NCBI GenBank assembly: GCA_033032865.1
Contig: JAWHQI010000005.1
Span: 4,984,001-5,048,000 of the forward strand
Length of the DNA stretch: 64,000 bases
Direction of reading: 5' to 3'
From: Dactylorhiza incarnata
Taxonomy: Eukaryota; Streptophyta; Magnoliopsida; Asparagales; Orchidaceae
The position numbers and the translations under genes were made by a program. The notes beneath the pieces were generated by a model, which saw nothing but the letters and a program-made list of their open reading frames with translations, was not told where the DNA came from and did not search any database. How positions within the stretch are numbered: the stretch's first letter is position 1; each line of letters opens with the position of its first letter. Positions 3,164-59,418 of this stretch are shown here, one piece after another.

Positions 3164-3210
3164 CGAAGAGGGATCTTTAATCTAGGTGTTAACCTCTTAA
3201 AGATAACCTG

Positions 3211-4076: not shown

Positions 4077-4387
4077 TGACTTAGCAGAAATTCCTTTTCT
4101 TCTGAAAACCTGCTCCACTCCTCAAACTTGAAAGCCTTCAGTTATGAGAAAATGAAGTGCACCCCAAAAGAGAGATTACACATGGACCAACACTTTGTTC
4201 TACACAATGAGGGATTACATTGTCTAGAACTGTGTTTGGTGATCCATTACAACCTGACTTTGGTGTGCACTTAGCATTAATACCTGTCATAACACATATG
4301 AATAGAAATAATCAAATACATACTCAATTCAATTTAGTTCACTAGGGGACATCTTCAAATCCAGGTAATTGTGGATACAATACCCAA

Positions 4388-27287: not shown

Positions 27288-27289
27288 AG

Positions 27290-27301
27290 TGGTATCAGAG
27301 C
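27290..27301 (+). other. Primer-binding site of element E
   Basis: TGGTATCAGAGC, the exact complement of the initiator tRNA-Met 3' end, lies two bases after the LTR. Confidence 0.9.
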
Positions 27302-27336
27302 GAGGTTACTACAAAACGGTTTTACCATCGGGAGTA

Positions 27337-29268: not shown

Positions 29269-30946
29269 GTGTGTTGGCAGGCTAAGGACAAAGAAGACGT
29301 GTGGTACTCGGACTCAGGCTGTTCAAAACACATGACGGGCAATAAAGAGAAGTTCCTTAGCCTAGAGATGAATAAAGGAGGAGTTGTTACTTTCGGAGAC
29401 AATGGAAAAGGAAAAATCATCGGCATCGGAGTTGTGGGTAACGAAAATTTTTCAATTTCAAATGTTCTATTTGTAGAAGGGTGCAAAATTATTAATTCCA
29501 AAACAAAGGAAATTGTTTTTACCGCACCTAGATGTCATAATGTATATATGATTAAATTTGTTGATTTTTCAAATTCTACCTTAAAATATTTTTTATCAAA
29601 AAATGATGAATTAGATTTATGGCATAGGCGACTTGGACATACTAGTGCCAAGTTAATTTCAAAACTTTCAAAAGATAAATTAATTAAAGGTTTACCATTG
29701 TTAAATGGAAATTTATCTTCTTCACTATGTGTGCCTTGCCAAAAAGGAAAATTTTCAAAATCATCTTTAAAAGTAAAAATATTATTTCTACCACTAGGCC
29801 ACTTCAATTAATACATATGGATTTATTTGGGCCAATTGGAATTTCTAGCTTAGGAGGTAGAAAATACACATTTGTATTGATTGATGATTATTCTCTTTTT
29901 TGTTGGACTTTATTTCTAACCTCAAAATCCGATGCATTTTCAGAATTTTCAAAATTATGTTTGCGTATTCAAAATGAATTTGAGTTAAAAATTAAACGCA
30001 TACGATCGGATCATGGAGGAGAATTTGAAAATGAAAAGTTTATTTCTTTTTTTACGGAGTTAGGAATTAAACATGAATTTTCCGCTCCACGCACACCACA
30101 GCAAAATGGTGTAGTGGAGAGGAAAAATAGAACTCTTCAAGAGTTAGCCCGTACGATGTTATCTGAATTTAAATTACCAAAATCCTTTTGTGCTGAAGCG
30201 GTTAATACGGCATGTTATGTAATTAATAGAGTAATGCTTCGCCCTATTTTAAAATTAACTCCTTATGAATTAATTTTTAATAAACAACCAAATGTTTCGT
30301 ATTTCAAAGTTTTTGGTTGTAAATGTTTTATTTTGAATTCTAAAGATTCCTTAGGAAAATTTGATGAAAAATGTGATGAAGGTATTTTTATTGGCTATTC
30401 TTCAACTAGTAAAGCTTATAGGATTTTTAATAAAAGAACAAAAATAGTTGAAGAATCTATTCATGTTAGGTTTGATGAGTTTGCTTCATGTGTAGAAAAG
30501 AAAATTACAGGAAAAGAAGATGAACTCCTTCCCACGGTGGAGAATGATGATGAAGAACTTCGAGAAAATGAAGAAGGAAAAGAAGAAGAAAGAGAAGGAG
30601 AATGAGAAGAAGGAGATAGAGAAGTAGAAGAAAGAGAAGGATATGAGCCTCCAAGTGAATTGAGGTTTTCAAAGGATAATCCAAAGGAGCTTATCATTGG
30701 AGATCCGCAAAAAGGGGTTTGTACTCGTTCATCGCTACATGTTTTATTTTCAAACCTTTGTTTTGTCTCTGAAATAGAACCAAAAGATGTTTCCACCGCT
30801 TTAAATGATGAATTTTGGTTTTTAGCTATGAATGAAGAACTTAATCAATTTGAACGTAATAAGTTTGGAATCTTGTAGAACGACCCAAAAATTGTCCTGT
30901 AGTTGGTGTTAAGTGGATTTTAAAAAATAAAATGGATAATGAATCT
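29269..30946 (+). pseudogene. pol: Protease, integrase and RT start of element E pol, broken
   Basis: It continues in the gag frame after the UAG. The protease motif is W-Y-S-D-S-G-C-S-K-H-M-T near 29301. The GAG-pre-integrase part shows L-W-H-R-R-L-G-H near 29614-29640. After a frameshift near 29783 the integrase core follows: M-D-L-F-G-P near 29817, I-R-S-D-H-G-G-E-F near 30003 and the P-Q-Q-N-G-V-V-E-R-K motif near 30097. A TGA at 30603-30605 and a frame change near 30860 precede the RT start (V-G-V-K-W-I-L-K). The coding sequence is then cut by element F at 30951. Confidence 0.88.
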
Positions 30947-30951
30947 AGAAT

Positions 30952-32118
30952 TGATGTAGGGGTACCGTGACAACGTGTACGTTACGCTAACGGAAAGACA
31001 TTCATCACAGAAATTAAAATAACATAGGAGGGCTCCGACCAAAAGCGAACGAAAAGGGGTCGGTTGGCTCCCAAATCCGATGGAGAAAAAATATGCGGGA
31101 CTCGATACAACGTTCTTAGGACCTACCTCTCCAACAAGCACACAACTCACCGCACCTACACAAGCATCTATTCCATCAATCGATTCATTTCAAAACGCAG
31201 CGACAATATTTTGGAGCGGCGGTGAACATTCAAGCGGCGATAAAGCTTTAGTTGAGATTAACTCCCTTGTTAACGCTAAGTGCGCCAATCTTGGAGAGCA
31301 AACCAAGGCTAGGCCGAGTTTCGCTCCCGCACCGGATCTACCCGATCCGAACAACAAGAGATTCAATAACAACACTATTATTTCAGATCTTGCAAGCGAA
31401 AAGATTTAAGATCGCGGATAAAACGATTCGACAAAACCTCCACAAACTAAAGCGTAGAAAGAATCACTAACAAGGAGAGGGGTTACCCAACCAAGAAGAT
31501 GAACACACAAGATAAGGTGGGAGAATCTCTCTCTCCACGATTCCACCGGCGTCGCACCGAACGGAGAAGCACCCTTTCTTCCTTGGAGTCGCACCACGGA
31601 AGTCTCGCCGGAGTCGCACCGAAGAGGATGGAGGGAGGCGGCCTTGGAGTCACACCAAGAGGGGGGGCGGCGGCTAGGAGGGAGAACTCCTTGTGGCCGA
31701 AATTTCCAAGGGGAAATAGGGTTTGGTTTTTTTGTTCTTCAATTATTTTCATTCCTTCATAAAGACCTCCTTAAATAGGAGTTTACACAAAATCTTAACC
31801 ATCCATGATGGAGATAAAATCTTATCCATCCGTAAGGTTAAATACACACCAAAATAAATAAAGAGTTCAAAATTAAAATTACAACCACTTTAATAAATAT
31901 AAAATTATCATCTAGCATGAAATAATTTTATATTTATTAATATAAAATAAAAGTGCATGAATAAAAGTTAAATTTTCATGGCGGTTTTGGCACGCCGCGG
32001 GCGGAGATTATAACGCGGACTTCCTTCAGCATCAACATGGCACCTCGGATCTTTGTGGCGCAGTGCCTCGGCAGCCGGGTCATCATCATCAAGGAGTGTC
32101 GGAGGGAACGCGCCATCA
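30952..32118 (-). repeat. 3' LTR of element F
   Basis: It is collinear with 35583-36749. The last 151 bases of the element's reading frame lie inside it. GGAGTCGCACC-like motifs repeat four times at about 31549-31660. A possible TATA-like sequence (TATTTAAGG) is near 31770-31782 on the minus strand. Confidence 0.92.
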
Positions 32119-34460
32119 ATCCTCCCCCACTCAAAATCAAGCATCTCCGATGCGTGGTCCGAGAGGTAGCGGCGGAGAAGATCAGCATCCAGTCGTTGAA
32201 GCTCCGTCGCGAGGACCCAAGAATCGTCTGAAGGAGGGCGATCACGCCAACGGATGAGGAAGCGGTAAGTAGCACCCTCTGAGGTAGTATGTGGCTCCGC
32301 AAACAGTATCATGTCCGGAGTGAGAAAAGTCTTCGGAAACCTGGGGAACATATCAGCAGTAGGAATAAAAGTATGCGACTTACCATCCGGTGAAATACCT
32401 GTGGGAACCGATAGAGAGAGGTCATCCGTACTACCACTCCCCAACCCATTAGAAGATTTGGTGGAAGGAGAAGACGTCAAGGAACTCAACTCATGTGGAG
32501 GCGATACGAACATCGTTAAATCCGAGACGTTAAAAATAGGGGAGATTCCCCATTCGGCAGGCAAATCCAAAACAAAAGCGTTGTCACCTATTTTCTCGAT
32601 GATCCGAAAAGGGCCGGCGCGCTTAGGTGCTAACTTTTTAACGGTGCCAGATGGCAAACGCTCGGGAACTAATCGTACTAAAACCAAATCGCCAACCTTG
32701 AAGTGTGACACTCTCCGATGTATATTGGTGTGCGCTTGGTAAGAATCGTATTGAGCAGTCAAGGTAGCTCGTATACGTGCATGTAAGTCATGAATATGTT
32801 GGGCGAAGGATTGTGCGAAATGACTTGTCTTGTTCGTTGGGGGCAACAGAACCAAGTCAAGAGGCACATGGGCCTTGTACCCGTGAACAATCTCGTTCGG
32901 AGACAGACCGGTGGACCGATTTTTGGAATTTAGTTCTATGCGGGATTCTCCAACGGGTGCGGTGACAACAGAGTGAATGGACCCAAGTGGGTCGGTTAAC
33001 ACCAAGTTATCACGTTCGGGTGAGATAAGACTTCTTGGAACACCTGCTAATTCATTATATAATTTTAAATCCAAGGTCATCGTAGGATGGGTAGTCGCAC
33101 GAACTATAGCAGCGGGGTCTTTGGGAGATAAGAATGTTAAAAAGTTCATAACTTCGTTCCCAAGACTAGATTCAAAAATGCTAGCACTCTCAAAGGGAGT
33201 GGTATCGGGAGCACGAAGCCTAGGTCGATCCCAAAATTTATGGTCAACTAGCATCTGAAGGACAACCCAACGAAACCACTCATCTCGTCCCGCGGTGGTA
33301 ACGGGTTCCATACCATACATCAAGGTCGGGACTGAATTAGGGGGGACCCAAGCAATCATAAATGGGTGACGGTTCAACAGGGGAGCTAACACTAGCATAT
33401 GGTCCGCTAGTGCAGAGAATGTGCCCGCACAACTACTACCAACAGATAACGGATTGGACCACTTATCCTCCCCACTAGAAGACACAGGAAACTCACTAGC
33501 CCTAATCCCGCTATCAAGAGTGTGAGGAGCTAATAAGGGTCGCCCCATCTCCTCAGCCTTCTCACCAACATCATCGGAATCACTCGGCTCTATCTCAGAA
33601 TTTTTAACAACCTCCGGAATGATCTCGGGATGACCAACAGGAGGCTCCCTAAAGATAATGGGATCAAGTAAAGGTCGACTAATCAGGGCAACCTCAGTCT
33701 CACATACTAAGCTAAGCGTGGTTGTTTCAGCAGTGGCAATATTGTCCTTAGAAAGGCTTGGATTAATAGGGTCAGCCTCAGCTTTAACGATTAAGCCTAA
33801 TGTGTTCGCTTCGGAGGGGCTAATACAGTCTATAGGCCGATTTTGACTAACAGTGTCAAAATCCTCTTTCGTTGCTAGGCACGGTGGTGTCGACTCAGTA
33901 GAGCTACAAGTACTTCCAGGTGGGACCAAAGGCGTCTTAGGCGGAGTGGACCTAAGAGTGATAAGCTGACCATTATGTTGGAATTCTATCGTGTTGTCAT
34001 GGTCATCGTGGATGACCACATGGTCAGAAAGCCATGGGCGTCCTAGCAATACATGACAATCCTTCATAGGAAGGACATCACACCAAACATGCTCAGAATA
34101 AACTTTGATGGTGAGGGGCACCAAACATCGCCTAGACACTAAAACAGTGCTCTCGTCAGAACACACAAGCTGATAGGGACGGGGGTGCGGCTCGGTGGTC
34201 AAACACATCCTCGTGATAGCATTTTCAGAAATGACATTCATGCGGCAAATACTATCGACAACTAGTTTGCACCACTTCTCACCGTGCTTAAAATTTTTCG
34301 AAAATTTTCTTGTTATGTCACGGTCAAACCTAATCACTCTTGCAACGGTGTCCCACCCTTTATCTAACGCTCGAGGTTTAGTGTTATAACTTTTATTAGT
34401 GGGGTGTGACACTCCATCCTGAGGAATAGTGGTTAGAGTTCGGGGGGTCTCTCTAGTCAT
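31968..34460 (-). CDS. 830-aa polyprotein of element F: protease - unknown segment - integrase tail - chromodomain
   Basis: Residues about 61-170 resemble a chromovirus (CRM-like) protease: V-V-D-S at 67-70 and L-L-G-R-P-W at 138-143. The residue after D-S is Ile, not Gly, so the catalytic turn is altered. Residues about 171-511 match nothing I recognise; 172-350 are Ser/Pro/Glu-rich, while 350-510 look more folded (W-F-R-W-V-V at 395-400). Residues 512-650 are the end of an integrase (H-G-Y-K-A-H-V-P, F-K-V-G-D-L-V, G-P-F-R-I-I). A chromodomain (F-L-I-R-W-R-D, S-W-V) is at about 715-765, then a basic tail. The frame has no stop in 830 codons, unlike neighbouring pol genes. The role is unknown; a retained trans-acting or targeting protein is one guess. 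Confidence 0.85.
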   Translation of the reverse strand: MTRETPRTLTTIPQDGVSHPTNKSYNTKPRALDKGWDTVARVIRFDRDITRKFSKNFKHGEKWCKLVVDSICRMNVISENAITRMCLTTEPHPRPYQLVCSDESTVLVSRRCLVPLTIKVYSEHVWCDVLPMKDCHVLLGRPWLSDHVVIHDDHDNTIEFQHNGQLITLRSTPPKTPLVPPGSTCSSTESTPPCLATKEDFDTVSQNRPIDCISPSEANTLGLIVKAEADPINPSLSKDNIATAETTTLSLVCETEVALISRPLLDPIIFREPPVGHPEIIPEVVKNSEIEPSDSDDVGEKAEEMGRPLLAPHTLDSGIRASEFPVSSSGEDKWSNPLSVGSSCAGTFSALADHMLVLAPLLNRHPFMIAWVPPNSVPTLMYGMEPVTTAGRDEWFRWVVLQMLVDHKFWDRPRLRAPDTTPFESASIFESSLGNEVMNFLTFLSPKDPAAIVRATTHPTMTLDLKLYNELAGVPRSLISPERDNLVLTDPLGSIHSVVTAPVGESRIELNSKNRSTGLSPNEIVHGYKAHVPLDLVLLPPTNKTSHFAQSFAQHIHDLHARIRATLTAQYDSYQAHTNIHRRVSHFKVGDLVLVRLVPERLPSGTVKKLAPKRAGPFRIIEKIGDNAFVLDLPAEWGISPIFNVSDLTMFVSPPHELSSLTSSPSTKSSNGLGSGSTDDLSLSVPTGISPDGKSHTFIPTADMFPRFPKTFLTPDMILFAEPHTTSEGATYRFLIRWRDRPPSDDSWVLATELQRLDADLLRRYLSDHASEMLDFEWGRIDGAFPPTLLDDDDPAAEALRHKDPRCHVDAEGSPRYNLRPRRAKTAMKI
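32119..32131 (-). other. Polypurine tract of element F, inside the coding frame
   Basis: The minus strand reads GAGTGGGGGAGGAT directly before the LTR start TGATGGCG. The same bases encode E-W-G-R-I of the polyprotein. Confidence 0.75.
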
Positions 34461-34502
34461 CCTAAGAGTGTGAACACAATACTAAAATATTTCAGATTTT
34501 AG

Positions 34503-34925
34503 GCCGTTACAAGCATAAATTTGAATTTTGAATTTCAAAAATTTGAATTTTGAATTTGAATTTTGAATTTCAAATTTTGAATTTTGAATTTGAATTTTGA
34601 ATTTCAAAAATTTGAATTTTGAATTTAAATTTTGAATTTCAAAATTTTGAATTTTGAAGTTGAAATTTGAATTTCAAAAATTTGAATTTTGAATTTCAAA
34701 AGTTTGAATTTTGAATTTGAATTTTTGGATTTCAAAAGTTTGAATTTTGAAATTTGAATTTTGAATTTCAAAAATTTGAATTTTGAATTTGAATTTGAAT
34801 TTTGAATTTCCAAAATTTGAATTTTGAATTTCAAAATTTGAATTTTGAATTTGAATTTTCAATTTCAAAATTTGAATTTTGAATTTGAATTTTGAATTTT
34901 AAATTTTGAATTTTCAATTTTGAAT
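34503..34925. repeat. AT-rich simple repeat in the leader of element F
   Basis: About 420 bp built from TTTGAATTTTGAATTTCAAAA-like words, nearly pure A/T with single G and C. It lies between the reading frame and the primer site on the element's strand. Its minus-strand open frames (Lys/Phe/Asn/Ile repeats) are not credible genes. Confidence 0.85.
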
Positions 34926-35567
34926 TCCTAGCTAAGATAAGATATAATTTAGGATTGTGCCAATTAAGTTTTATGCCGCTATTCGCAAGCCCGATTTTGA
35001 AAATTAATTATTTTTGGAAACAAATCGTGCAAGATTAATTAAGATTTGGTTGTTTTGGAAAGGAATCGTGCAAGATTAATTAAGATTTGGTTGTTTTGGA
35101 AAGAAATCGTGCAAGATTGATTATTTGTCGGCGTCCTACGGTAAGAAATAAATTAGGATGGTATCAATTAAGATTAATAATTTTTTTTTTATTTTATTTT
35201 AATGCTGACAATAGAGTGAGGATTGTCCAGAAATTTTTTTTTTTGATTTTCGACAAAAAATTCAGATTTCAGACCGCTATTCGCACTCCACCTGGACAGA
35301 ATTACGACGTTTCTAATTTTCAGGCCGACCTAACGAGGACGAATCGAAAAAGTTTCAGTTTTAATGTTGCTGGAAATACGTGCAGGAAGCTACAGAAAAA
35401 ATTCCAGATTTTTCTGACAAGTTTTAAATTTCTGAGTTTTTACTAAACGCAGACCAATCCGAAATTTTTCAGATTTTGACCGTGCTAACGAACGCACCGA
35501 CTAGAGGACGGATAACCTACCGATCTTAGAGTAAGGATGGTGTCGAGATAGAACTCAACACAACCTA
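34926..35567 (-). other. Leader of element F (where gag would be expected)
   Basis: No gag domain or zinc knuckle could be read in any frame. It contains two tandem copies of a segment with ATCGTGCAAGATTAATTAAG (near 35020-35120). This is likely an untranslated leader left after loss of gag. Confidence 0.6.
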
Positions 35568-35579
35568 GCTCTGATACCA
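35568..35579 (-). other. Primer-binding site of element F
   Basis: The reverse complement is TGGTATCAGAGC, three bases from the end of the 5' LTR. It fixes the element's minus orientation. Confidence 0.9.
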
Positions 35580-35582
35580 AAT

Positions 35583-36749
35583 TGATGTAGGGGTATGGTG
35601 ACAATGTGTACGTTACGCTAACGGAAAGACATTCATCACAGAAATTAAAATAACATAGGAGGGCTCCGACCAAAAGCGAACGAAAAGGGGTCGGTTGGCT
35701 CCCAAATCCGATGGAGAAAAAATATGCGGGACTCGATACAACGTTCTTAGGACCTACCTCTCCAACAAGCACACAACTCACCGCACCTACACAAGCATCT
35801 ATTCCATCAATCGATTCATTTCAAAACGCAGCGATAATATTTTGGAGCGGCGGTGAACATTCAAGCGGCGATAAAGCTTTAGTTGAGATTAACTCCCTTG
35901 TTAACGCTAAGTGCGCCAATCTTGGAGAGCAAACCAAGGCTAGGCCGAGTTTCGCTCCCGCACCGGATCTACCCGATCCGAACAACAAGAGATTCAATAA
36001 CAACACTATTATTTCAGATCTTGCAAGCGAAAAGATTTAAGATCGCGGATAAAACGATTCGACAAAACCTCCACAAACTAAAGCGTAGAAAGAATCACTA
36101 ACAAGGAGAGGGGTTACCCAACCAAGAAGATGAACACACAAGATAAGGTGGGAGAATCTCTCTCTCCACGATTCCACCGGCGTCGCACCGAACGGAGAAG
36201 CACCCTTTCTTCCTTGGAGTCGCACCACGGAAGTCTCGCCGGAGTCGCACCGAAGAGGATGGAGGGAGGCGTCCTTGGAGTCACACCAAGAGGGGGGGCG
36301 GCGGCTAGGAGGGAGAACTCCTTGTGGCCGAAATTTCCAAGGGGAAATAGGGTTTGGTTTTTTTGTTATTCAATTATTTTCATTCCTTCATAAAGACCTC
36401 CTTAAATAGGAGTTTACACAAAATCTTAACCATCCATGATGGAGATAAAATCTTATCCATCCGTAAGGTTAAATACACACCAAAATAAATAAAGAGTTCA
36501 AAATTAAAATTACAACCACTTTAATAAATATAAAATTATCATCTAGCATGAAATAATTTTATATTTATTAATATAAAATAAAAGTGCATGAATAAAAGTT
36601 AAATTTTCATGGCGGTTTTGGCACGCCGCGGGCGGAGATTATAACGCGGACTTCCTTCAGCATCAACATGGCACCTCGGATCTTTGTGGCGCAGTGCCTC
36701 GGCAGCCGGGTCATCATCATCAAGGAGTGTCGGAGGGAACGCGCCATCA
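35583..36749 (-). repeat. 5' LTR of element F
   Basis: It is 1,167 bp, the same length as the 3' copy, with TG..CA ends and AGAAT after it at 36750-36754. Confidence 0.92.
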
Positions 36750-36754
36750 AGAAT

Positions 36755-38076
36755 TGTTAGAAATAAAGCCAGATTAGTTGCAAAAGGTTATGCACAAATT
36801 GAAGGGGTAGATTTTGATGAAACTTTTGCACCCGTAGCAAGATTAGAAGCGGTTAGGATATTTCTTGCATTTGCTTGTTTTAAAAGATTTAAATTATATC
36901 AAATGGATGTCAAAACCGCATTTTAAACGGGTATATAAAAGAAGAGGTTTATGTAGAACAACCCCCTGGCTTTATAAATGAGAAATATCCAAATTATGTT
37001 TATAAATTAGATAAAACGCTTTATGGATTAAAACAGGCGCCTCGTGCTTGGTATGATCGATTAACTCAATATTTGTTAAAGCACGATTATAAAATAGGAA
37101 GTGCTGATTCTACACTCTTCATTAGGCAAATTGATCATGATTTAGTTATTTTGCAAATTTATGTTGATGATATTATTTTTGGAGCCACTAATGAAGAGTT
37201 GTGTAATGAAGTAGTTCAAATTATGAAAAATGAATTTGAAATGAGTATGGTTGGAGAACTTTCATATTTTCTAGGTTTTCAAATTACACAAAAACATGAT
37301 GGTATTTTTATATGTCAAACCAAATATATTCATGATATGTTAAAAAGATTTGGATTTGAAAATCTTAAGCATGCAAACACTCCTATGAGTACTTCACTAA
37401 AATTAGGAAAAGATGAAAGTGGTGTTTCAATTGAACAAACCCTTTATAGAAGTATGATAGGGTCTTTATTGTATTTAACCGCATCTAGACCTGACATTAT
37501 GTTTGCCGTATGTTTATGTGCTAGATTTCAAGCTAATCCTAAAGAATCACATTTAAAAGCGGTGAAACGCATCTTTAGATATTTTATAGGAACATCTAAA
37601 TTAGGATTATGGTATCCTAATAATGATTCCTTTATTTTACATGGTTTTTCGGATTCCGATTATGCGGGATGTTCTTTAGATAGGAAAAGCACTAGTGGCA
37701 CTTATCATTTTATCGGCCCTTCACTTATTTCATGGTCGAGTAGGAAACAGAATTCTGTTGCCCTCTCTACCACCGAGGCCGAATATATTGCACTAGGTAG
37801 TTGTTGTGCCCAAGCTCTTTGGATGTCAAAACGTTAGAAGATTTTGGCATGCAACAAAGTAGTGTAGAATTAAAGTGTGACAATAAAAGTGCTATAAACT
37901 TAACTAACAATCCCGTATTACATTCTAGATCTAAGCATATAGATGTCCGACATCATTTTATAAGGGATCATATTAAGAAGGGTAATATAAAAATCAACTT
38001 TATAGGCACGGAAAATCAACTAGCGGATATATTCACTAAACCGTTACCGGATTCCCGTTTTCTATGCTTAGGCTAG
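36755..38076 (+). pseudogene. pol: Reverse transcriptase and RNase H of element E pol, broken
   Basis: The RT resumes after element F with K-A-R-L-V-A-K-G-Y, then F-A-P-V-A-R and Q-M-D-V-K-T-A-F. A one-base change near 36922 shifts the frame. The active site Y-V-D-D-I-I-F-G is at about 37160-37183. RNase H shows S-D-S-D-Y-A-G near 37652 and S-T-T-E-A-E-Y near 37765; after a further shift near 37830 it ends with D-I-F-T-K-P-L-P before the stop at 38076. The motif set is classical copia. Confidence 0.9.
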
Positions 38077-38397
38077 AATTGGGAATCCTAGACATTTCAC
38101 AATGAATATATCACTACTTAAAACCTATAAAATTTAAAAAAAATCACAAAACCTATACATTTTTTAAAAAAAAGTGAAAAACCTAAATTTTAAAATCAAA
38201 CCATAGAATTTAAAATGACTTAACAAAAATTCACACATCATTAATATTACATCAATATTATTCCATAAAAACAGTAGAAAACAACATAAGTTCAAGTTCA
38301 CTAACAGAAAAGAACATCTGAAGAAGTTCACTGTCGCCCAGGCGACAGTGGATGTCAGAAATTTCCGACATCAGTCAGCAGCAGCAGCCTGATGAAA
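38077..38397. other. AT-rich spacer after RNase H in element E
   Basis: No gene. It contains one palindrome module (38331-38348 and 38351-38372), just past the 3' end of the antisense gene. Confidence 0.6.
38331..38372 (-). promoter_or_regulatory. Palindrome module downstream of the antisense gene in element E
   Basis: CTGTCGCCCAGGCGACAG (38331-38348) is followed two bases on by GATGTCAGAAATTTCCGACATC. Both halves match the LTR modules. Confidence 0.8.
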
Positions 38398-39512
38398 CTA
38401 CTCAGAATCCTCAAAACCAGCCCCGCTGCTCTCTGGACAGTCTTCTGGAGGTCCTCGTCTTACGGCCTTACCACAGCGAGTCCGCCTCACCGATTGGCGT
38501 GGCGGTTCTTCGTCTGGAACTTGCCATTCGGCCTCTTCCTCCGGAGTTGGCTTTAACTTCAGACCTTTCACAAGAAATTTCATGAACTTCTGCATTCTAC
38601 TACGATCCTTCTTCACTTCTTTCTTGTGATCCTCTAGTGAATCACGTAAATCATCAATAGACTCTCGAAGTGATCCTGCCCTAGGCATTGGAGGCTCTCT
38701 AATCTCAATTCCAGGATGGGCCTTTTATGCATCTTCTTCACTTTCATAGTACCCGTATAATATATCTCCGGATAATAATCATCAAAATACGAATCTTGAG
38801 CTATCCATCCATACTTCTTATATAGTATACACTGAATTATCGCCCCCATTGGCAGCGTATGAACCTTCACCCATTTTGGATGCTTTAATCTAAACGCATA
38901 CCGAATCTGGGAGAATATGAAGTCCGCCATATCAAAAGGTTCCTCCTCCATAATAAAGTAAGTAATGAGGGTCAACTGAGCCATGATACTCCTTGTATCT
39001 CCACTCTTTAACATGACTGTGTTCCTTAATATATCTTGAACTAAATATGCATCCGGAGTGAGTGACGTAACTTCAGTGGTTAGGGTCTTCTTTTGACTCC
39101 CATGTAAACTCATGTTTACAAGGGTCTAATCTCTATCTTTTCTATAACTCTCCACTATATCCGGCATATTTTCACTCATCAGTAGTCCGAATTCCTCTCT
39201 TAGATCAACATGTGTTATTTCCACATGTTGACCCTGGATTCTTGATCTAACTCCCCCATCCAATTCAGTGAAATTTGGGTCTTCCAAATGGTTATTAAAT
39301 TCTCGAATCAAAAAGGATGAAAACGAATATGCTGTGATTATTGAAAGTATACCTGCATTCGCAAGCCGATCATAGATATGATCGTGCTTCGGCGAATCAA
39401 ATTCAACATATTTCGCTACTCCAACTATGGCTTTCTCCACCCCAGGAAAAACTTGATACGAACTATGCGCATCTTCAGAGGTACTCCTTCGCGCTTTAGA
39501 ACTGGAAGCCAT
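38398..39512 (-). pseudogene. Antisense gene of element E (plant transposon-protein-like), lightly broken
   Basis: Starting at ATG 39512 the frame runs to a TAG near 39126, continues in the same frame to about 38725, then shifts by one base into a charged C-terminal segment (D-H-K-K-E-V-K-K-D) that stops at 38398. The N-terminal two thirds (I-R-E-F-N-N-H-L, V-D-L-R-E-E-F-G-L, then T-L-P-M-G-A-I-I-Q) resemble, from memory, the 'putative plant transposon protein' family (PF20167). A strong acceptor TTTGCAG lies two bases before the ATG, a donor AAG|GTATGG at 40032, and a TATA box at 40127-40134, so a 519-nt intron in the leader is likely. Function unknown. SIRE elements often carry an extra gene after pol, usually on the sense strand. 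Confidence 0.65.
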
Positions 39513-39563
39513 TCTGCAAATAACATATCAAAAATGGATTAAACATGTGCTGTGCACTAGAAC

Positions 39564-39606
39564 ACTGTCGCCCAGGCGACAGTGACTGTCGGAAAATTCT
39601 GACAGT
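39564..39606 (-). promoter_or_regulatory. Palindrome module in the leader intron of the antisense gene
   Basis: ACTGTCGCCCAGGCGACAGT at 39564-39583 is followed by ACTGTCGG..CTGACAGT at 39585-39606. It lies about 50-90 bases upstream of the antisense ATG, inside the predicted intron. Confidence 0.75.
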
Positions 39607-40126
39607 ACTCCAGTGAACTTCTCTCGAAATTTTGTACATACACTTCCAGATCTACTCAAAATCAAGTTTATTTCAACATCAAGTTTAAAAAAAAAATATT
39701 TTTTTTTCAAATCTACATCTTCTCCATATCCTTTACTATTCATCATCTTCAACCCTCTTCCAAAAGGCAAATCCTCCATTTTGAAAAATAAACTATGTAC
39801 AAATGCAAACCTTCAACCACGAAAATCACAAAATCAAAACATCTTTCACCAAGATCCAACAAGATCCACTTGCTTTAGCCTAGATCTACACTTTTAAAAC
39901 ACAAAACTTCAAAGATCTACACCATTCAACCATAGTAAAATGAAAACCACATTTTCCTTCTTCTCAACTTTCTAAAATAAAAAATCCCTAAAAAATTTTG
40001 AGTCAAAACACTTAAAAATCCAAAAACCATACCTTAGATCTAGGATGTCGCCGAACTCCGACAGCTTCCTCTCGTCCTTAACTCCAGGAAATGATGCACA
40101 ATAGGGTTTGACTCGGTCCAAAGCCG

Positions 40127-40134
40127 TATTTATA
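40127..40134 (-). promoter_or_regulatory. TATA box of the antisense gene in element E
   Basis: The minus strand reads AAAAATATAAATACGG. The nearest palindrome ends 7 nt upstream. The predicted start near 40100 leaves a first exon of about 70 nt before the donor at 40032. Confidence 0.6.
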
Positions 40135-40141
40135 TTTTTGG

Positions 40142-40182
40142 CTGTCGCCCATGCGACAGTGACTGTCGGAAATTTCCGACAG
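40142..40182 (-). promoter_or_regulatory. Palindrome module at the antisense promoter of element E
   Basis: On the minus strand CTGTCGGAAATTTCCGACAG (40182-40163) is followed by CTGTCGCATGGGCGACAG (40159-40142), then 7 nt, then the TATA box. Order and spacing match the last module of the 3' LTR (41960-41999, then 9 nt, then TATAAAT at 42009). Confidence 0.8.
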
Positions 40183-41334
40183 CTCCCGATTTGATTAATC
40201 TTCAGTTTTTGGTCCCTTTGATGCTTTAAAATAGTTGTATGTCCTTATTAATGCTACAACTCATGAATTGATGCCAAACCATGTGCTTTTTATTTTAACA
40301 AATAGCTCTTACATGATAATATGATTTCATTTCCAAGCTATCATCGTAATTGACACTCCTTCTTAGTTGTTTAGAACATTGGAAATTGTTTTCGCATGCC
40401 TCTAAGTATGAGAAATTGTTTATATATCATAATGCACTATCACGTTCACTTCTTTTGATCAATACGTATGTCTTTTTATTTAATATATACATGAATCATA
40501 TTTGCTTTAACATAATAAAATAGCACTTCATAAATACAACTTTCAACCTTGATTTGTTAGCACAACAAAATATACACCATCTTTTGCGATTCAAGTGAAT
40601 TCGGAGATCCTTGGTCAATTAAAAAATTATTAATATCTCAAAATTAAGATATCACAAAATATGTGATAAAAAAAATAAGGTTAAAATTAAAGACAAGGAT
40701 ACTCCACCAAGCACTACTTACCCTCCTGATAAGTCTTAATGAGCATTGTGAGGTTAAGCACCTTGGAAAGAATTGTAAAGTGTCTAGTGCAAAAGAAAAA
40801 TGGTTTGCTATTCTTCTTGTGCTATATCTTCAATGTAAAAGTTGACTTTATATGTTTATATTATATTCTCCATTTCATGATCATGTACATTAAATAACTT
40901 CATATGTTTGATCTAAGTATCACATGTACACATCATTATGTTATATAAACATTCATCTCATGAGAATTGGACCGAAAATATTCCAAATTTCTATCCAGTA
41001 TTGTGTCTTTCTATGATACTTTCAAATGAACTTAATCATGTTTAAGTTATTTTATTTTCTTATTTCATATGGCTATACCGTCTCTTCATGAGTTTATTCA
41101 TACTATGGCATATACCTATTATTTCATGAACTTCAATCATTTCCATCAAAGTGCTTCCGCTTACTCTTCATTTCTACATCCTATATCTTTTCCCTTAAGA
41201 ACTACTCCTTTATCTCATATTACCTTTTGCTAATAGCAAAAGAGGGAGAATTATAGGTATATTCAAGAAATCTCAAATATATTACACCTAAATATTCCAC
41301 CTAACCAATACATCATTTCAACTTACTTTAACAT
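40183..41334. other. AT-rich 3' region of element E
   Basis: No credible gene. A segment near 40690-40830 (with CCTGATAAGTCTTAATGAGC and TTGGAAAGAATTGTAAAGTG) recurs, reversed, in the 3' region of element G near 49450-49640, so the two elements share an old 3' domain. Confidence 0.6.
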
Positions 41335-41416
41335 TTAGGGAGAGCATACATTTAGGGGGAGCATACTTTTAGGGGGAGCATTCATTTAGGGGGAGCTTTC
41401 ATCTAAGGGGAGATTA
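41335..41416 (+). repeat. Repeated polypurine-like motifs before the 3' LTR of element E
   Basis: Five copies of the type TTTAGGGGGAGCA occur within about 80 bp. Another (GCAAAAGAGGGAGAA) is near 41237. The final tract is at 41522-41534. Confidence 0.75.
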
Positions 41417-41521
41417 TTTATTTTAAGAGAAATATATCATGTTATTTCTGTGCACACACCAAATGTTAAAATCAACAATCTAAATAGACATGATTTCTTT
41501 TTATACGGATTTGTTATTATC

Positions 41522-41534
41522 AAAAGGGGGAGAT
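41522..41534 (+). other. Polypurine tract of element E
   Basis: AAAAGGGGGAGAT directly precedes the 3' LTR and would prime plus-strand DNA synthesis. Confidence 0.8.
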
Positions 41535-42800
41535 TATTGGAGCATGTGTTTCGCACTCCTCCGGTTTGATAATAACAAAGTCCCGTTTGTATTTGATTCT
41601 ATTTTTATTAATGGTGTGCAGGTAACAGGTATGAGATGTTCACATTTCTGCTGGAGCTAAATTTGAATGTAGGAAAATTTCACTGTCGGAAAATTCCGAC
41701 AGCTGATGTCGCCCAGGCGACAGCAGAGAAGTTACAACTACTTCCCTCCACGGCAGCACGACGAAAAGCAGTTTTGAGCTGTCGGAAATCCGACAGCGAT
41801 GTCGCCCAGGAGACAGCTCGGAGGTTTCAACAACTGCCCACGACACCACCACGACCGGCAGTTTTGCGCTGTCGGAATTCCGACATCGATGTCGCCCAGG
41901 CGACAGCTCGGCGGTTACAGCAACTGCCCGCACGACGGCACTCCAGCGGCAGTTTAGCGCTGTCGGAAAATTCCGACAGTCGATGTCGCCTACGCGACAG
42001 CGATTTTCTATAAATTGACTCCTTGTGTTCGTGCATTCTATGAATTAAAATTTCCAAGTCCCTTCCTGAGTGCATACGAACCAGAGAGCTCTAGAACCTC
42101 TTCAACTCCCATTTGTGCAAAGAAGGATTGAAGATTGAAGACGAGATCGGGCGCGCTTCTACATCAACAATCATCTCGAGGCTTCAACCATCCATTGAGA
42201 GATCTGAATTTCTAGGGAGTTGTTCTTTTCATATTGTATTTTCATTTACACACATTTCATTTTGTATCGGTAGAGAAATCGTCGTTTTGCGTGCGACGTC
42301 TAAGTCCTTGCGTGGCTTAAGGGAAAATCGCTTCCTTGTGTGGAGCATCCAAGTCCTTACGTGGCTTGGTGGGAAATCGTGGCCTTGTGTGCTACGTCTA
42401 GATCTTGGAAAGATCTAGTGGATAGGCTTGGGCTTGGTCTTGGGAGAGACAAGTGATAGCCTTCCGATCCTTGGGAGAAGGATTGGTAAACCAAAATTAT
42501 TGTATTTTTTATTATCATAATTGTGCCTTGATCTTAAGCATTGTTAAGATCATTTTTTTATTGTATGCAAATTTCATGATAAATATAATTATGCTCTTTT
42601 CACTAATTGCAAATTTGTTTGCTTAAATCTTTATCTTAGAAATTTGTGTTTGGTTTAATACAAAAATTGCATTGGTTTAAAATTATTTATAAGTAACTTT
42701 TTAGAAAAGAAAAATCTGTTTAAAAATTATTAAGTAAAAATTTATATTTTTAAACACACCCTTATTCACCCCCCCTCTAAGGGCGTCACACGATCCAACA
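41535..42800 (+). repeat. 3' LTR of element E
   Basis: It starts TATTGGAGCATG (first dinucleotide TA instead of TG) and ends GATCCAACA before GGTGC. It is 50 bp longer than the 5' copy because it keeps the complete fourth palindrome module and the TATA box. Confidence 0.9.
41683..42015 (+). promoter_or_regulatory. Paired-palindrome promoter of the 3' LTR of element E
   Basis: Four modules: 41683-41702 with 41707-41722, 41779-41796 with 41800-41815, 41869-41886 with 41890-41905, 41960-41979 with 41984-41999. TATAAAT at 42009-42015 follows the last. Copy two has one mismatch (AGGAGACA), and copy four has TA instead of CA at its centre. Confidence 0.85.
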
Positions 42801-42805
42801 GGTGC

Positions 42806-46385: not shown

Positions 46386-47579
46386 CGTTGGATCGGTAGG
46401 CACCCTTAGAGGGGGGAGGGGTGAATATGGGTTTTAAAAACTTATATTATATTTTAAAATACTTGAAAGGTTAGGAGATTAAAATAGTGATTTAGAATGA
46501 AGATATAAATTGTTTTATAATGAAAGAGTAAGAAATAATCAATTTAGAGAAATGAAGAGTAAATCAATTTCATTACAAAAAGAGACGTGATTATTATTGA
46601 TAAAAATTGATTACAAAACTAGATTTCTATGCCGCTAGAAATCAAAGGAGAATAACTGAAAATCCCTTTTTGTTTTCTATTCTGACTCATATCCCCACGA
46701 ACCGATGGATTTAGCCTATCCTTCCCCAGATACGGCCTCAAGTCGCTCTAGCCAATCCTTCCCCGGATATGGCCTCGAGCACCCCCAGAACTAACCTAGA
46801 TCTAGTCACCAACACGAGGCGAATTTCAGCCCTAAGTCCTACCCAGACCTAGTCGCCAACATGAGGTGAATTTACTAAACGATATAAAAGAGATGAAATA
46901 AATAACAATAATATAAAAACTCCTTATATGGATCTCTTGGAGAAGTAGACGAAATCCCTGATGGATCGTGTAGATGCGGCCGTTAGTCACGGTGATGAAG
47001 CGTGTTGAAATCTTCTCCAATGATCTCCTTAAGCCTTCATGGATTTGTGGGAGTATCTCTCTGAATCTTCATCTCTATGCTGTGGCACGAAGCTCTGCAA
47101 TTTACTATCTTAAGAGGATAAATAAGATGGATCCAAGGGTTCCTTTTTATAGCCTTGGAGCTAGCGCCTGCGCTATCACTATCGTCGGCGCTATCCTAGA
47201 TTAGGAAATATTCTCTGCGTGAGAATCCTTCATTTTAAGCAAGCCGTACGCCTTCCTCTATTGCATTGCGCTATCGCCTGCGCTAGTAGATACCGCCTGT
47301 GCTAGGTGCTATCAGTTGCGTTAGATGTTATCGCCTGGCGCTATCTCCTTCTATATCTGCCTCTTGAAATTGCTCTAATTAGAGCTAGCGCCTGCGCCAG
47401 GTGCTACCGTCGGCGCTAGTGAACATGTTGGAATTTTGGCTTCAAACTTTGGGGCAACCTTCATATATTATCCTTGAGTCATATGGCTTTGTTTCCCGCA
47501 CACTTAAACACACAAGATCAAATACACATAGGATTTGTTATTCTCAAACCAAGGAGATGCGGAAGACCATGTTCCAACA
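46386..47579 (-). repeat. 3' LTR of element G
   Basis: On the minus strand it runs TGTTGGAACATGG to CCGATCCAACG. The minus-strand TATA box (GGCTATAAAAAGG) is at about 47141-47154, and the GCGCT-type repeats upstream of it at 47158-47420. Confidence 0.88.
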
Positions 47580-50500
47580 AACTCCCCCTTTTGATAATAA
47601 CAAATCCATTAATGATAAATCAGAGCATTAATATATAAGCATGATGAAACCTACTTGTGTGAGTGTGAGAGTGATGACTTAGGATAATTGTTGATTTTAG
47701 TATTTAGAATTGCTCCCCCTAAATACATGCTCCCCCTATGTGAATGCTCCTTTATATATAAGCTATCATCTTAAGACTTAAATCATGTTGGTTTTTCCAT
47801 TTGATAGCGATTATTATTTATCATGTTAGTTCTCCCTCTTTTGTTATTAGCAAAAGTGGGTAAGGAAGCAATATACATACAAAAGGATTTTTGATTAAAA
47901 AAATAAGACATGATCGAGCTTTATAGAGGAAATGAAATGATAAGGAGTTTTATGCATAATAAGGTAATGATTTCCAAGTAACCAATCTACCTAGATAATA
48001 TGTCTACACCCTAGCCCCGTACAAAGTGGCAGATGGTCATGAGGAGCTGCAAACATGCCGTAGGTTGGGGTGTTAGTCTCATATTCAAACACTAGAAGAT
48101 ACTCAACCTAGCACTCTTTCCCCCCCAGTGCCTCGCAAGGCCCCACTGGAACTCTCCCCGGTTAAGGACAAGACATGACTTAGAGATTAGGTTATCTAAT
48201 GTATACAATCCTACACCCCCGCTATGGTGAGATATGTAATCATGGGATAATAATCATTGTAAACATTAGCATTTGAATCTAATGATTAGTTCATAGCCTA
48301 TGTGTTTATATTTTTATTTGAATTTTTACAGAAAAGCTCACATAGCTAATTTGAAATCCATTAATAAATCAGAGTTTTAGCATTGAGGAAGACTTAACAT
48401 TTTGGAATAAATAAGAACATCCTTTTAGCAATTAGGAACTCAAAACACAATTTGATTTGAAATTCAAGAAGATGTTTTTATAAGCAATATTTCACTTGTT
48501 GGAGGAGTGTTTAGCATAACTTTTTTATAGAAATAGATCAGAGTTTGTAGCATAAAAATGATATTCGTGTTAGACCAACCAATATAAATTCTACCAAGCA
48601 AGTCTACCATTTGTTAAAAAAGGAATTTTTAGATTTAAGACTTTGATATAAGCATGAAAGCGCAAGCTAAAAAATATATGGTGATAATGCGGAAGACTTA
48701 TAGAAATACAAGAAACATCTTTGTATTCAAGATTATTCATTAGAAAAATAGGAGTAAAATTCAAAAGCAGAAGATGTGTTGGAGTTCAAAATATTAAGAG
48801 TTATAGCATAATATTTGAAAGATTTAAAATAAGATAATTAGAGTCTTTATAATAAGAGAAAAGGCTATAAAATTGTTTATAAAAAAACATCTTTTTGGAA
48901 GTCTTAAAGATCATAATAGAAATAAGAGATGTTATGCAATAAAGGTGATGTTGTTTGGATAAAACTAATCTTATATAAACATCCAAGTTTATGATAATAT
49001 TAAAAAAAATTCATAACTAAGTAAGGTTTTTAGTAAAGTTTTCATGGCAATAGGAAAGGTGTTATATCTTTCAAAAAAAAACTATTAAGGCAAGCATGAT
49101 TGCACATATTCTAGAAGATAGTAACTACACTATTATTAATTTTCATTTCAAGTTAGGAAAACATTGTAGAGATCAGACATTGCAATCTAGTGCTTTTACT
49201 AAAGATTTCTAGAGAATTTATGTACAAAAGCATTTGAGTCCAATTCTCATGAGTAGAAGCTTTATGAGAGATAATGATGTGTATAGAAGGTGTTTTGATA
49301 AAAGTATACAAGTGATATAATCCAAAACATATGACTTATATAATGAAGTAGAAACATTATTAAGCATGTAATCTCTTTAACTACTTCTACACATCAATTC
49401 TAGATTTGATACAAAGCACAATAAAAGGTACAACTACCAATGTGCTTTGCCCATAAAATGCTCATTAAGACTTATCAGGGAGCAAAGAAGTGCTTGGGGG
49501 ATCTCATATTTTATTTTCAATACGAGTTATTTGAGATCCGGTGTACAAAATAGAAGTGTATGAAAGTAGTTTACACAAGACACTTTACAATTCTTTCCAA
49601 GGGGCTCAACCTCACAATGCTTATGAAGGCTTATCAGGAGGTTCAAGTAGTGCTTGGTGGAATTATCTTTGTCATTTTATTTTTGTTTTTGAGCAAGGCA
49701 AAGTTCTCCGAATTCACTTATTTTTGCAAACACTTATAATTTTGTAATTTCACTTCTATATGTGCAACAAAGTTTTGAATAATGTATAGGTAATAGAGAT
49801 AGACATCTTAATATTGTAAGCTACTACACTACACAATCATGTAGGGTTAAAAATTATAGGTACAAGTAGTCTATCAAAAAGTGTGAGTGTAAAAACATCA
49901 TTATCTAACATAACACATTACTCATACTTAGAGGCATACAAGTGCAATCCTACACAATTCACTATAGACTTTTTCTTTGCACATAACAAGATTAAAATCA
50001 AAGCATGACAAGCCAAAACAATGTTTAGAGAACTTGAGATTTAAAATTAAACATTTTTAGGCAAATCTAAAAGAACATGCTTTGTCATTTTTCCCAAAGT
50101 AATGAAACATCGAAATCTTGTTATTTTTTTTAAAACTTTGCAGAAACAAATACAAATAAGTAAAGACATATTTTTTTTGCATTTTAGTATTTTTAAAATT
50201 TGTATTTGATTTTTTAAACATCATACAATGGAATTAAGATAAAGATAGATAGTACATATAAAAGAAAATATTTATATTGATTTTTAAAAATTTTAAAAGC
50301 TCAGAAAATTTGAAACTTGAGCTAGCGCGGCAAACAGTACACTATTTTTCAATATTTTGGAAATTCTGATTATTGATCTTGATTAAGTATCCCAAGAGTA
50401 GTTTCATGCAGAAATTTCAGAATTTTTGGAGATGTCTAAATAGTGCAAATTTGCATGAAACGTTAGCGATTTCTTATATGACTTGACAACGCATGATATA

Positions 50501-51062
50501 TATTTTCTTATATCTTCATTTTGATTTTCCCTAAGGCATATATTTATCAATATGATGTAAGTTGAAAATGATAGGAAATGTAAGCACAAGATATCAGTTC
50601 GAATAGGCCAAATAAACATGATTTGAATGTTTAGTACGAGATGATGTTTTTGCAAAGAGTAACATGGATATGCCCTAGATAAGAATATATAAAACCTAAC
50701 ATAGATACTAATATTCTTTAGGTGTCAATGTTTTGAGATTAATGCTATGCCAATGCATGATAGTGTTTCAATTTATAGACCTAGAATGAAATGAAGATTC
50801 AATTTGATTTGATCTTATTGATATCAAGATGATTCTAAGGTCTAAACTTGAAATAAATCACAATACACACATAATACACCAACCATGTTATGTAATTATA
50901 ATATCAATTGTCATCATATAATTCACAAAATAAATATATTGATAATTGGGCTTTCTTTTAGCTCTCGATCTTTCTTTTAAATCATGTTATTTCTCTAATT
51001 TTGTTAATGAAAGCTAAAAAGCTTAATAGCATAATAACTTGATTTAATTTGAAATATCTTAT
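47580..51062. other. AT-rich 3' region of element G
   Basis: No credible gene: frames are short and biased to Phe, Ile and Lys. Polypurine-like copies (reverse complement of GCTCCCCCTAAATACATG) are at about 47710-47750. A segment at 49450-49640 matches element E near 40690-40830 and is itself present twice (around 49450-49500 and 49590-49660). Confidence 0.6.
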
Positions 51063-52272
51063 TGTTGAAACAAATAACTTGGTCACTCGAGGATTTCAGG
51101 CCCTCAACACGTTGGGGGGCGACCAACACTTACTCCTCCCAAGGGAGAGCTCTAGGCTAAGAGGCTAAGGAACTAGAAATGAGACCAAGGGCTTAGCGAG
51201 GAGGTCCCACCACACACCCGGAAGATCTTAGAGCGCTTCCCCTCCCAAGCCAATGCTAAGCTTGGGCACCTTTGGAGGCTCTCTCCACCCACCAAAGAAA
51301 CATGGGGAGAGAGTCGCCAAAAGAGAAGTCCCTCCAAATGGTGCCCCCTTGATCCTATTTATAGGATTTTGAACTTGGTCTGCCAATAGCCACAATCTGG
51401 CCTACGAGATTACAAAAATACCCTCGGATTTGGCCTGCAAATAGCCAAATCCCGCTGTTCTACGACGCTAAACGCAAACCGAACCTCCCTACTGGAGCTG
51501 GGGCGAGGGGAGGCAGGCCTCCCCCTTGCTCGCTTCCTCACTGGGCTGGGCGAGCCGGGGGGTCGCCCCTCCTGGGCTCGCCCCCTGCTGGGGCGGGGGC
51601 GAGAGGGGGCTGGCGCCTCCTACTTTCTCCCCCTTACAAGGGGTGGGGGCGAGAGGGGCGGGGCGCCTCCTCCTCTCACCCCCCTTATAAGGGGCGGGGG
51701 AGTGAGGGGCTGGGCGCCTCCTCCTCTCGCCCCCCTTACAAGTGGCTGGGGCGAGAGGGGATGGGAGCCTCCTCCTCTCACCCCATTACAAGTGGCGGGG
51801 GCGAGAGGGAATGGGAGCCTCCTCCTCTCACCCACCTAATGGGGAGGGGGCGAGACTAGGAGGACGCCCGCCTCGAGTCTCGCCCCCCTTGTTGGGGTGG
51901 GGGCGAGACCAGGAGGCCGCCTGCCTCGGGTCTCGCCCCCCTTGCTGGGGCGGGGCGAGAGGGGCCTGCGGCTCCTCCTCTCGGCCCCTAACTGGGGCGG
52001 GGAAAGAGGGGCATACTGCTCCTCCTCTCGGCCCCTAACTGGGGCGGGGCGAGATGGGCCTGCGGCTCCTCCCCTCGCCCCCTAGCTGGGGCGGGGGCGA
52101 GCCCAGGAGGCCGCACGCCTCCGACTCGCCCCTCTTACGGGCTGGGCGAGCGGGAGGCCTCCGCCTCCACTGCTCACCCCCTCCTTCTTGCCTGGGGTCA
52201 ACGCTCAAAAACTGTTGGGCCTAAAGACATTTTAGGCCCCGGGGACCCACTCGGCAAATACAGGGTTATACA
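51063..52272 (-). repeat. 3' LTR of element H
   Basis: Plus-strand ends are TGTTGAAAC and GGGTTATACA. The part 51480-52200 is an array of GC-rich inverted units of about 50 bp (GGGGCGAGAGGGG..CCTCCTCCTCTCGCCCCC), upstream in element sense of the minus-strand TATA at 51356-51363. Confidence 0.88.
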
Positions 52273-52349
52273 CAATCCCCGTTTTTTTCGAGTGAGGTAC
52301 AAGCTCAGAAAGTAAAGTCCAACCCCTCATATTCGGCGAATGGTGCTGA

Positions 52350-54725: not shown

Positions 54726-54799
54726 ACTTACATTATATTAATCATCATAATACATGCAAGAAAAACCAAGCATGAGAATAAAACATCGCAATACATGGA

Positions 54800-56218: not shown

Positions 56219-56275
56219 GGAGCTCAGCTTGAGAGTTTCTTGAGTTGGTCACGCTCCACGCTCACTGCACCATAA

Positions 56276-57550: not shown

Positions 57551-57850
57551 CCTATAACAAATTTATAGTTCAATTTATATGAATACTATATGATATATAT
57601 TGGCAATGAATATAAGAAAGATAGATAGGTCATCAAAATAAAAATAAATTTTAATTTTGATCAATTTGATTTATAAACTCATTAAGTTTTAAGAGATAAA
57701 ATCACAACTCTAATAATATATAAGATGACCATTACATGATAGCTTAACAAAAATAAGAAAACAAAAAGAAAAATTAAAAGACATTAAAGCATATCATGAA
57801 GTAGAAATTTGTATATCTCATTTTGGAAATATTCTACTTTATGCATTTGG
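57551..57850. other. AT-rich interior of element G beside element H
   Basis: No gene seen. It lies downstream, in element sense, of the gag end at 57857. Confidence 0.5.
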
Positions 57851-57856
57851 TGATAC

Positions 57857-59369: not shown

Positions 59370-59404
59370 TATTCCTGGTTGTTAAGCCGATTTGGAATAA
59401 CCTA

Positions 59405-59416
59405 CCTCTGATACCA
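59405..59416 (-). other. Primer-binding site of element G
   Basis: The reverse complement TGGTATCAGAGG lies two bases from the 5' LTR end. Confidence 0.85.
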
Positions 59417-59418
59417 CT

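Follow-up and report, generated by a model that had tools for sequence, protein, structure and literature searches.

Why should two promoters that face in opposite directions within one retrotransposon carry the same pair of palindromes directly ahead of their TATA boxes? The question is raised by element E, a Ty1/copia retrotransposon in a 64,000-nucleotide stretch of the orchid Dactylorhiza incarnata (contig JAWHQI010000005.1, in a genome of 3.27 Gb; the whole stretch is called the window below), which carries an antisense gene with a TATA box of its own ahead of its 3' long terminal repeat (LTR). Two alternating types of dyad make up the module, a G-type (TGTCGG-N6-CCGACA, with N4 and N5 variants in the LTRs) and a C-type (TGTCGC-N4-GCGACA); at the LTR promoter and at the antisense promoter alike, a G-type dyad is followed after 3-4 nt by a C-type dyad and after another 7-9 nt by the TATA box (Table 1). 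With one and the same base of the dyad as the starting point, the TATA box is 9 nt away in the LTR and 8 nt away at the antisense promoter; by their positions, the centers of paired dyads are separated by about 20-23 bp, close to two turns of the helix. A first-pass annotation of this DNA had claimed that order and spacing agree at both promoters although the neighboring sequence does not; the agreement can be read directly, and no alignment of the two promoters extends beyond the module, a blastn comparison of the LTR region with the antisense region having returned a match of 43 nt only.

The abundance of the palindromes was compared with several controls. Between 38081 and 42010, eight GC-rich palindromes with arms of at least 8 nt were found, two of them overlapping, against zero or one in each of 20 dinucleotide shuffles. 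In 20 fetched stretches and the element E region, perfect dyads of the form TGTCG-N4..12-CGACA numbered 298, against 0-24 for the 29 other arrangements of the same five letters; the arms did not occur there in direct orientation, and the 150 everted cases are produced by the neighboring dyads of pairs. Genome-wide, the G-type palindrome with up to two mismatches was matched 14,012 times in forward and 14,179 times in reverse orientation, most probably the same sites on both strands, and a control pattern once and twice.

Conservation was followed in 16, 12 and 6 fetched copies plus the window, all from one plant genome: the 16 gene-bearing copies (17 with the window) were picked by an exact LTR palindrome, the 12 by the antisense protein, and the six (L023-L028) lack the extra gene; among eight loci of 3 kb, L002 and L004 belong to the 16, and L001, L003 and L005-L008 stand outside the counts. 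The annotation had named relatives without the module at the antisense promoter as grounds for rejection; with at most one arm change per dyad, the module is kept there in 28 of 29 copies, namely 17/17 of those chosen by the LTR palindrome (window included) and 11/12 of those chosen by the antisense protein, all 12 of which have a dyad 9 nt ahead of the LTR TATA box. L029, the one exception, lacks the promoter and exon dyads and has internal dyads in the intron only; because the polypurine tracts (PPTs) also lie about 590 nt closer to the gene, the stretch with the promoter and exon dyads has probably been deleted. An insertion separates the antisense module from the gene in L013, and the LTR dyad array is shortened in L034.

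In an alignment of 16 copies (L013 was dropped because its insertion breaks the alignment), cells that depart from the majority base amount to 10/800 in the dyad arms, 46/736 in spacers and outer bases, 148/1344 in the 12-nt flanks and 1778/14512 in the other columns; the arms depart about nine times less often than the flanks, as would be expected of palindromes conserved above nearby sequence. CpG is retained in 170/176 cells inside the dyads and in 90/110 outside. The compensating changes that had been expected in the arms did not appear: the TGTCG arms are fixed, and only the next inner base switches symmetrically between dyad types (C..G or G..C). Fixed arms without compensation point to recognition of the sequence more than of its symmetry. 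To judge from these comparisons, the presence of the module is not a matter of chance or drift; its retention in 28 of 29 copies, together with the contrast between arms and flanks, gives good support to the proposal that a common factor controls both promoters, and it is very probable that one sequence-specific factor acts at both. The linker stretch 40362-40423, upstream of the antisense promoter, equals the dyads in conservation across copies.

The dyads extend beyond the two promoters. The 5' LTR holds three G+C pairs plus a single G dyad, and the LTRs of this family have up to four pairs each, or five in L019. Further modules had been listed for the LTRs and for two internal places, the 3' end of the likely antisense intron and the stretch directly past the antisense stop codon; these are present, several with one arm change. 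Not included in the list were a mixed dyad of the presumed 5' exon of the antisense gene and a dyad pair inside gag. Relative to the antisense gene, the modules at its promoter, intron and 3' end share one orientation (n = 3). In gag, two subtypes that are 62% identical share the position of the dyad pair and differ in its spacers: subtype 1 has C-type dyads whose TGTCG arms are 5 and 4 nt apart, and subtype 2 a G-type dyad with arms 8 nt apart plus a mixed dyad with arms 7 nt apart. The gag dyad DNA encodes different amino acids in the two subtypes, CRPATTTVAGDS vs. CRKFPTATVGTGDS, while the TGTCG..CGACA arms are constant; this is the pattern expected from selection on the DNA or RNA sequence, not on the protein. 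Within subtype 1, one of the two dyads is decayed in the window, L012, L013, L021 and L022, and one is missing in L017.

The antisense gene itself is broken in the window copy; its frame is open over 371 amino acids in L009, L010, L012, L014, L015, L018 and L019. A search of the genome gave 8,964 candidates, of which the best 110 were scored; in 94 of these the antisense-protein match is free of stops. The ratio of nonsynonymous to synonymous divergence (dN/dS) was 0.10-0.15 in all 17 pairs with a dS of at least 0.27 (seven intact copies, 21 pairs), indicating strong purifying selection on the protein; the restriction to intact copies biases this value a little. The likely intron in the 5' untranslated region (UTR) has a GT donor in 15 of 17 copies, GC in L021 and a donor displaced by the insertion in L013, and its acceptor CAG/AATG is found in 17/17. 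The protein matches Transposase_32 (PF20167) with 30.3 bits (E 4.6e-7; the curated cut-off is 45 bits), and it is at most a distant relative of that family; an hmmscan of two intact copies gave besides this only matches of E 0.04 or worse, DUF1985 and DUF287 not being among those found. A large protein collection yielded 1422 candidate homologs, none at E 0.001 or better, and solved structures one chance match (E 0.58). The C-terminal part is first basic and then acidic.

In the six relatives L023-L028, the LTR pieces share 80-93% identity with those of element E, most of them at least 85%, and the reverse transcriptase (RT), RNase H and antisense pieces find no match; a single long forward frame, of 527-533 amino acids, is present in each and is weakly gag-like in L028, the only one tested. 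They keep dyads in both LTRs, adjoining the TATA box, and at up to one arm change none of the six has dyads between the LTRs; internal dyads are found in 17/17 and 12/12 of the gene-bearing copies. Dyads in the linker thus accompany the extra gene, as in published Sireviruses, in what is a single phylogenetic contrast. The TATA-proximal slot of the six holds a G-type in place of the C-type dyad, and tandem C-type arrays in exact 21-bp steps occur in the LTRs of L027 (1320-1399) and L028 (1183-1283); the slots thus tolerate either type, and the motif is copied in tandem. In L026, decayed C-type dyad pairs lie ahead of the 5' LTR (275-474, with the element turned sense) and are repeated after 165 bp.

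Another copia element, element A at the left edge of the window, allows a comparison across families; its pol is 53% identical to that of element E. Its LTR dyads are of the form ATTCGTCG..CGACGAAT, with inner TTCACGTGAA-like dyads, and its extra open reading frame (ORF) is in sense orientation, interrupted and weakly Transposase_32-like (E 5e-4, 20 bits). The hexamer CGTGAA occurs four times in the U3 region of its LTR, four times in the 265 nt that separate pol from the extra ORF and not in the other 9.6 kb, and it ranks first among the hexamers common to the two places; for CG-holding hexamers absent elsewhere, 0/2000 shuffles of this 265-nt stretch and 0/171 other slices reach four. Elements E and A, whose motifs differ, both have an LTR motif that recurs at the extra gene; in element A the sharing is partial.

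These observations suggest a mechanism in which the palindromes are the dyad-shaped repeated motifs (RMs) of a Sirevirus and form an upstream module that can be reused at promoters. A sequence-specific DNA-binding protein that reads TGTCG..CGACA, probably as a dimer, would bind the pairs next to the LTR and antisense TATA boxes, and also the dyads of the antisense intron, the 3' end and gag; the antisense promoter would yield a trans-acting regulator that returns to these scattered dyads and either switches on both transcription units or keeps them free of silencing, as VANC does for VANDAL. What we infer here is that a protein binds the dyads, which protein this is and in which direction it acts. 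The likeliest binder is the antisense protein that element E encodes, a plausible reading at only a little short of an even chance, for which the support is circumstantial: motif and extra gene co-occur (in the E family, partly in element A, and in a published table), the motifs differ between elements of one genome yet recur within an element, and the protein is strongly kept. Activation or anti-silencing would be a likelier effect than repression, since keeping the dyads would benefit relatives that lack the gene. Rather doubtful as a whole is the fullest version, modeled on VANC, in which the antisense protein would be an element-specific, self-addressing regulator of the LTR, promoter, intron, 3' end and gag dyads that activates or protects from silencing, the varied extra ORFs of Sireviruses would be the partners of element-specific palindromes, and gag-only relatives would parasitize the system.

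Several points weigh against the antisense protein in this role, or against parts of the evidence. No DNA-binding domain was recognized in it by hmmscan, whose one notable Pfam match was Transposase_32, and its AlphaFold2 model, from six near-identical sequences, is unusable throughout (mean predicted local distance difference test score, pLDDT, 33.6). The LTR dyads of L023-L028 are kept without the gene and need a factor supplied in trans or by the host. The earlier suggestion of a dimeric factor fits the dyad symmetry, but spacers of 4-8 nt between the TGTCG arms are awkward for a single rigid dimer. Ranked by raw identity over 20-nt windows, the five dyads fall in the top 4.5, 6.7, 7.6, 24 and 34% and are not unique; this ranking is indecisive because other linker stretches, such as ~40362-40423, are also highly conserved, and the count of arms against flanks is the cleaner measure. 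Element A, on which the cross-family comparison depends, is a single copy, and the shuffle and slice test of its CGTGAA was framed only once that hexamer had been noticed; ATTCGTCG, the motif most frequent in its LTR (10 in U3), is absent before the extra ORF, and the linker copies of CGTGAA are single half-sites, with no palindrome of the LTR kind found there. Finally, the available text of Bousios et al. (2010) includes six Sireviruses with an envelope-like (ENV) gene and without RM boxes (PMC2829016).

Alternatively, a host transcription factor may bind the dyads at both promoters, the element having copied a host-responsive enhancer to its second promoter; auxin response factors (ARFs) and stress factors with a CCGAC core are the obvious candidates, and this explanation, a serious rival, is possible but somewhat doubtful. 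It would account for the dyads of relatives without the gene, and the dyads resemble tandem ARF sites in their inverted half-sites: according to the accessible parts of the ARF study, TGTCGG is the best half-site and TGTCGC reporters also show expression (PMC10690724), and Bousios et al. matched Sirevirus RMs mainly to the sites of stress factors (PMC2829016). ARF pairs, however, favor inverted repeats with spacing 7 or 8, AtARF5 binding 5, 6 and 9 more weakly and AtARF1 only 7/8 (PMC10690724), and among the 298 perfect dyads there is none whose TGTCG arms stand 9 or 10 nt apart, as inverted repeat (IR) 7 or 8 would require, IR6 and IR4 being the common forms. Three copia families in or beside the window have three different motifs, which one host factor leaves unexplained. 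The core of the dehydration-responsive element (DRE) is CCGAC preceded by A or G, whereas the base ahead of CCGAC in the dyads is T.

The palindromes might also function not as DNA sites but as RNA hairpins, for packaging or small-RNA production, since genomic RNA would contain all internal and 3' LTR dyads, and palindrome-rich LTR regions of maize Sireviruses are described as small-RNA hot spots in the portions available of two studies (PMC10760457, PMC5311732). This is improbable in view of the fixed, uncompensated arms and of the placement adjoining TATA boxes, which hairpins leave unexplained; moreover, the 47 single arm changes in 458 dyads comprise 21 C>T, which keeps a G-U pair in the sense RNA, 19 G>A, which breaks the pair, and 7 others, and so show no wobble bias, in a weak test from which dyads with a spacer starting with A were dropped and in which most changes are probably post-insertion decay. 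Mere duplication, with a piece of the LTR U3 placed ahead of the antisense gene by copying and then simply inherited, without any factor common to the two promoters, is very improbable. The modules have clearly been copied, as their varying number and the 21-bp arrays indicate, but the match is confined to the dyads within dissimilar surrounding DNA, the arms stayed fixed despite an antisense-gene dS of 0.3-0.5, and element A has a comparable arrangement of a different motif.

Table 1. Features of element E and its neighbors in the window (positions in nucleotides of the window).
Feature	Position	Strand	Remarks
3' LTR promoter module	CTGTCGGAAAATTCCGACAG 41960-41979; TGTCGCCTACGCGACA 41984-41999	+	then 9 nt and TATAAAT 42009-42015
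LTR TATA box TATAAAT	42009-42015	+	9 nt beyond last dyad
Antisense-promoter module	40142-40182	-	G-type CTGTCGGAAATTTCCGACAG 40182-40163; 3 nt; C-type CTGTCGCATGGGCGACAG 40159-40142
Antisense TATA box TATAAATA	40134-40127	-	7 nt beyond C-type dyad CTGTCGCATGGGCGACAG
Mixed dyad TGTCGC-N6-CCGACA	40045-40064	-	presumed antisense 5' exon
G+C module, intron	39565-39605	-	near 3' end of likely antisense intron; G dyad 39586-39605, one change in window copy
G+C module, 3' end	38331-38371	-	directly past stop codon of antisense gene; one change in G dyad of window copy
C-type dyad pair in gag coding sequence	28969-29002	+	28969-28983 (decayed here), 28989-29002
5' LTR G-type dyads	26220-26239, 26316-26333, 26395-26412, 26486-26505 (1 change)	+	
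5' LTR C-type dyads	26243-26260 (1 change), 26336-26353, 26415-26432	+	
3' LTR U3, four G+C dyad pairs	41683-41723, 41779-41816 (1 change), 41869-41906, 41960-42000	+	
Antisense gene	38398-39512	-	broken in window copy; pieces 39126-39512, 38634-39125, 38398-38724; weak Transposase_32
Likely 5'UTR intron of antisense gene	39514-40033	-	ends approximate; donor AAG/GTATGG, acceptor TTTGCAG/AATG; from sequence only
Element E, Ty1/copia, Sirevirus by its marks	26072-42800		
5' LTR, TGTTGG...CCAACA	26072-27287	+	
3' LTR	41535-42800	+	begins TATTGG in window copy
Target duplication, GGTGC	26067-26071 and 42801-42805		5 bp
Terminal PPT octamer AGGGGGAG	41525-41532	+	starts 10 bp ahead of 3' LTR start
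Element A, copia	~850-4400	-	left edge, rest in L041/L042 (C2740:4966001-4984000); gag, pol, extra ORF
Element F	46387-60614	-	LTRs 46387-47579 and 59420-60614, 90% identical

The assignment of element E to the Sireviruses was made from sequence marks: the PPT octamer 10 bp from the 3' LTR, the repetition of PPTs and the copia order of integrase and RT (rve, then RVT_2, by hmmscan in the relative L009) are published marks of this lineage. Identical octamers at 41354, 41371 and 41388 bring the number in the linker to four, and seven other copies have 4-6 exact octamers each. The LTRs of element E are 94.4% identical to each other. Direct repeats at 30949-31248 and 35580-35879 (99% identical) resemble LTR parts of a younger element, and at least one such element seems to be nested inside element E; between the repeats, the minus strand has an open stretch of 837 amino acids (31968-34481). 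Element F, the third copia family, has a gag-like match and no pol match, and long repetitive frames in its middle. Its dyad TAGCGC-N2-GCGCTA ends 10 nt ahead of its TATA box; most copies are decayed, and at two mismatches the dyad is as frequent across the window as permuted controls, being merely clustered in the two LTRs.

The preferred explanation, a sequence-specific factor common to both promoters, can be set beside systems that are already described, as far as the available parts of the cited papers go. Palindromes in Sirevirus LTRs and beside the extra gene were published in 2010, and element E shows this feature in new surroundings. The RMs of Bousios et al. (2010) are CpG-rich palindromes located upstream of the TATA box in Sirevirus LTRs; copies in both LTR and linker were found in 9/9 RM-bearing Sireviruses with ENV, and linker copies in 0/4 without it; the linker copies are nearly all upstream of the ENV-like gene, and the RM sequence varies between elements (PMC2829016). 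Element E is alike in its dyad-symmetric, CpG-rich repeats at both places, in having one motif per element and in its multiple AGGGGGAG PPTs; the CGG-CCG signature of the Sirevirus RMs is carried by its G-type (TGTCGG..CCGACA), not by its C-type (TGTCGC..GCGACA). It differs in that its extra gene is antisense, with its own TATA box and a likely intron, and in that two alternating dyad types occur, also in the intron, the 3' end and gag. The new elements are the antisense gene with its own TATA box, the gag dyads and the sharing of CGTGAA between LTR and extra gene in element A; in the accessible text of Bousios et al. the term "antisense" gives no hit and antisense genes are not mentioned (PMC2829016), and none of the literature titles searched, in a coverage that excludes most subscription journals, concerns dyads shared with an antisense copia gene. 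Bousios et al. named no single binding factor in the sections at hand and proposed stress factors and an internal ENV promoter, and the role of the extra ORF and the binder of the LTR palindromes are both open there (PMC2829016). If the extra protein reads the palindromes, one answer would serve for both. Forward extra ORFs are reported for 74% of SIRE elements, in 19 groups with little or no similarity, in the part of Neumann et al. at hand.

Antisense genes between pol and the 3' LTR, for which a regulatory role has been proposed, are also known from Grande, RIRE2 and Retand, and that of Grande has its own promoter; these are Ty3/gypsy elements, the Retand proteins carry Transposase_28, and dyads common to LTR and antisense promoter are not mentioned in the available passages (PMC7264820, PMC11963269). 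The closest anatomical parallel to the proposed regulator is VANC21, which binds a short motif present upstream and in introns within the transposon that encodes it; this motif spreads via tandem repeats (PMC5735166, PMC10398659). Element E likewise has an accessory gene of its own, a short motif in upstream regions and in an intron predicted from sequence, and repeats gained and lost through tandem duplication; VANCs differ in carrying DUF1985/DUF287, and the VANC21 motif, YAGTATTAY, is not palindromic (PMC5735166, PMC10398659). The likeness to VANC anti-silencing is one of anatomy only, not of family. VANDALs are DNA transposons, unlike element E; if the antisense protein does return to the dyads of its own element, LTR retrotransposons would possess a self-addressed regulator of a sort that, to our knowledge, is familiar only from the VANDAL DNA transposons.

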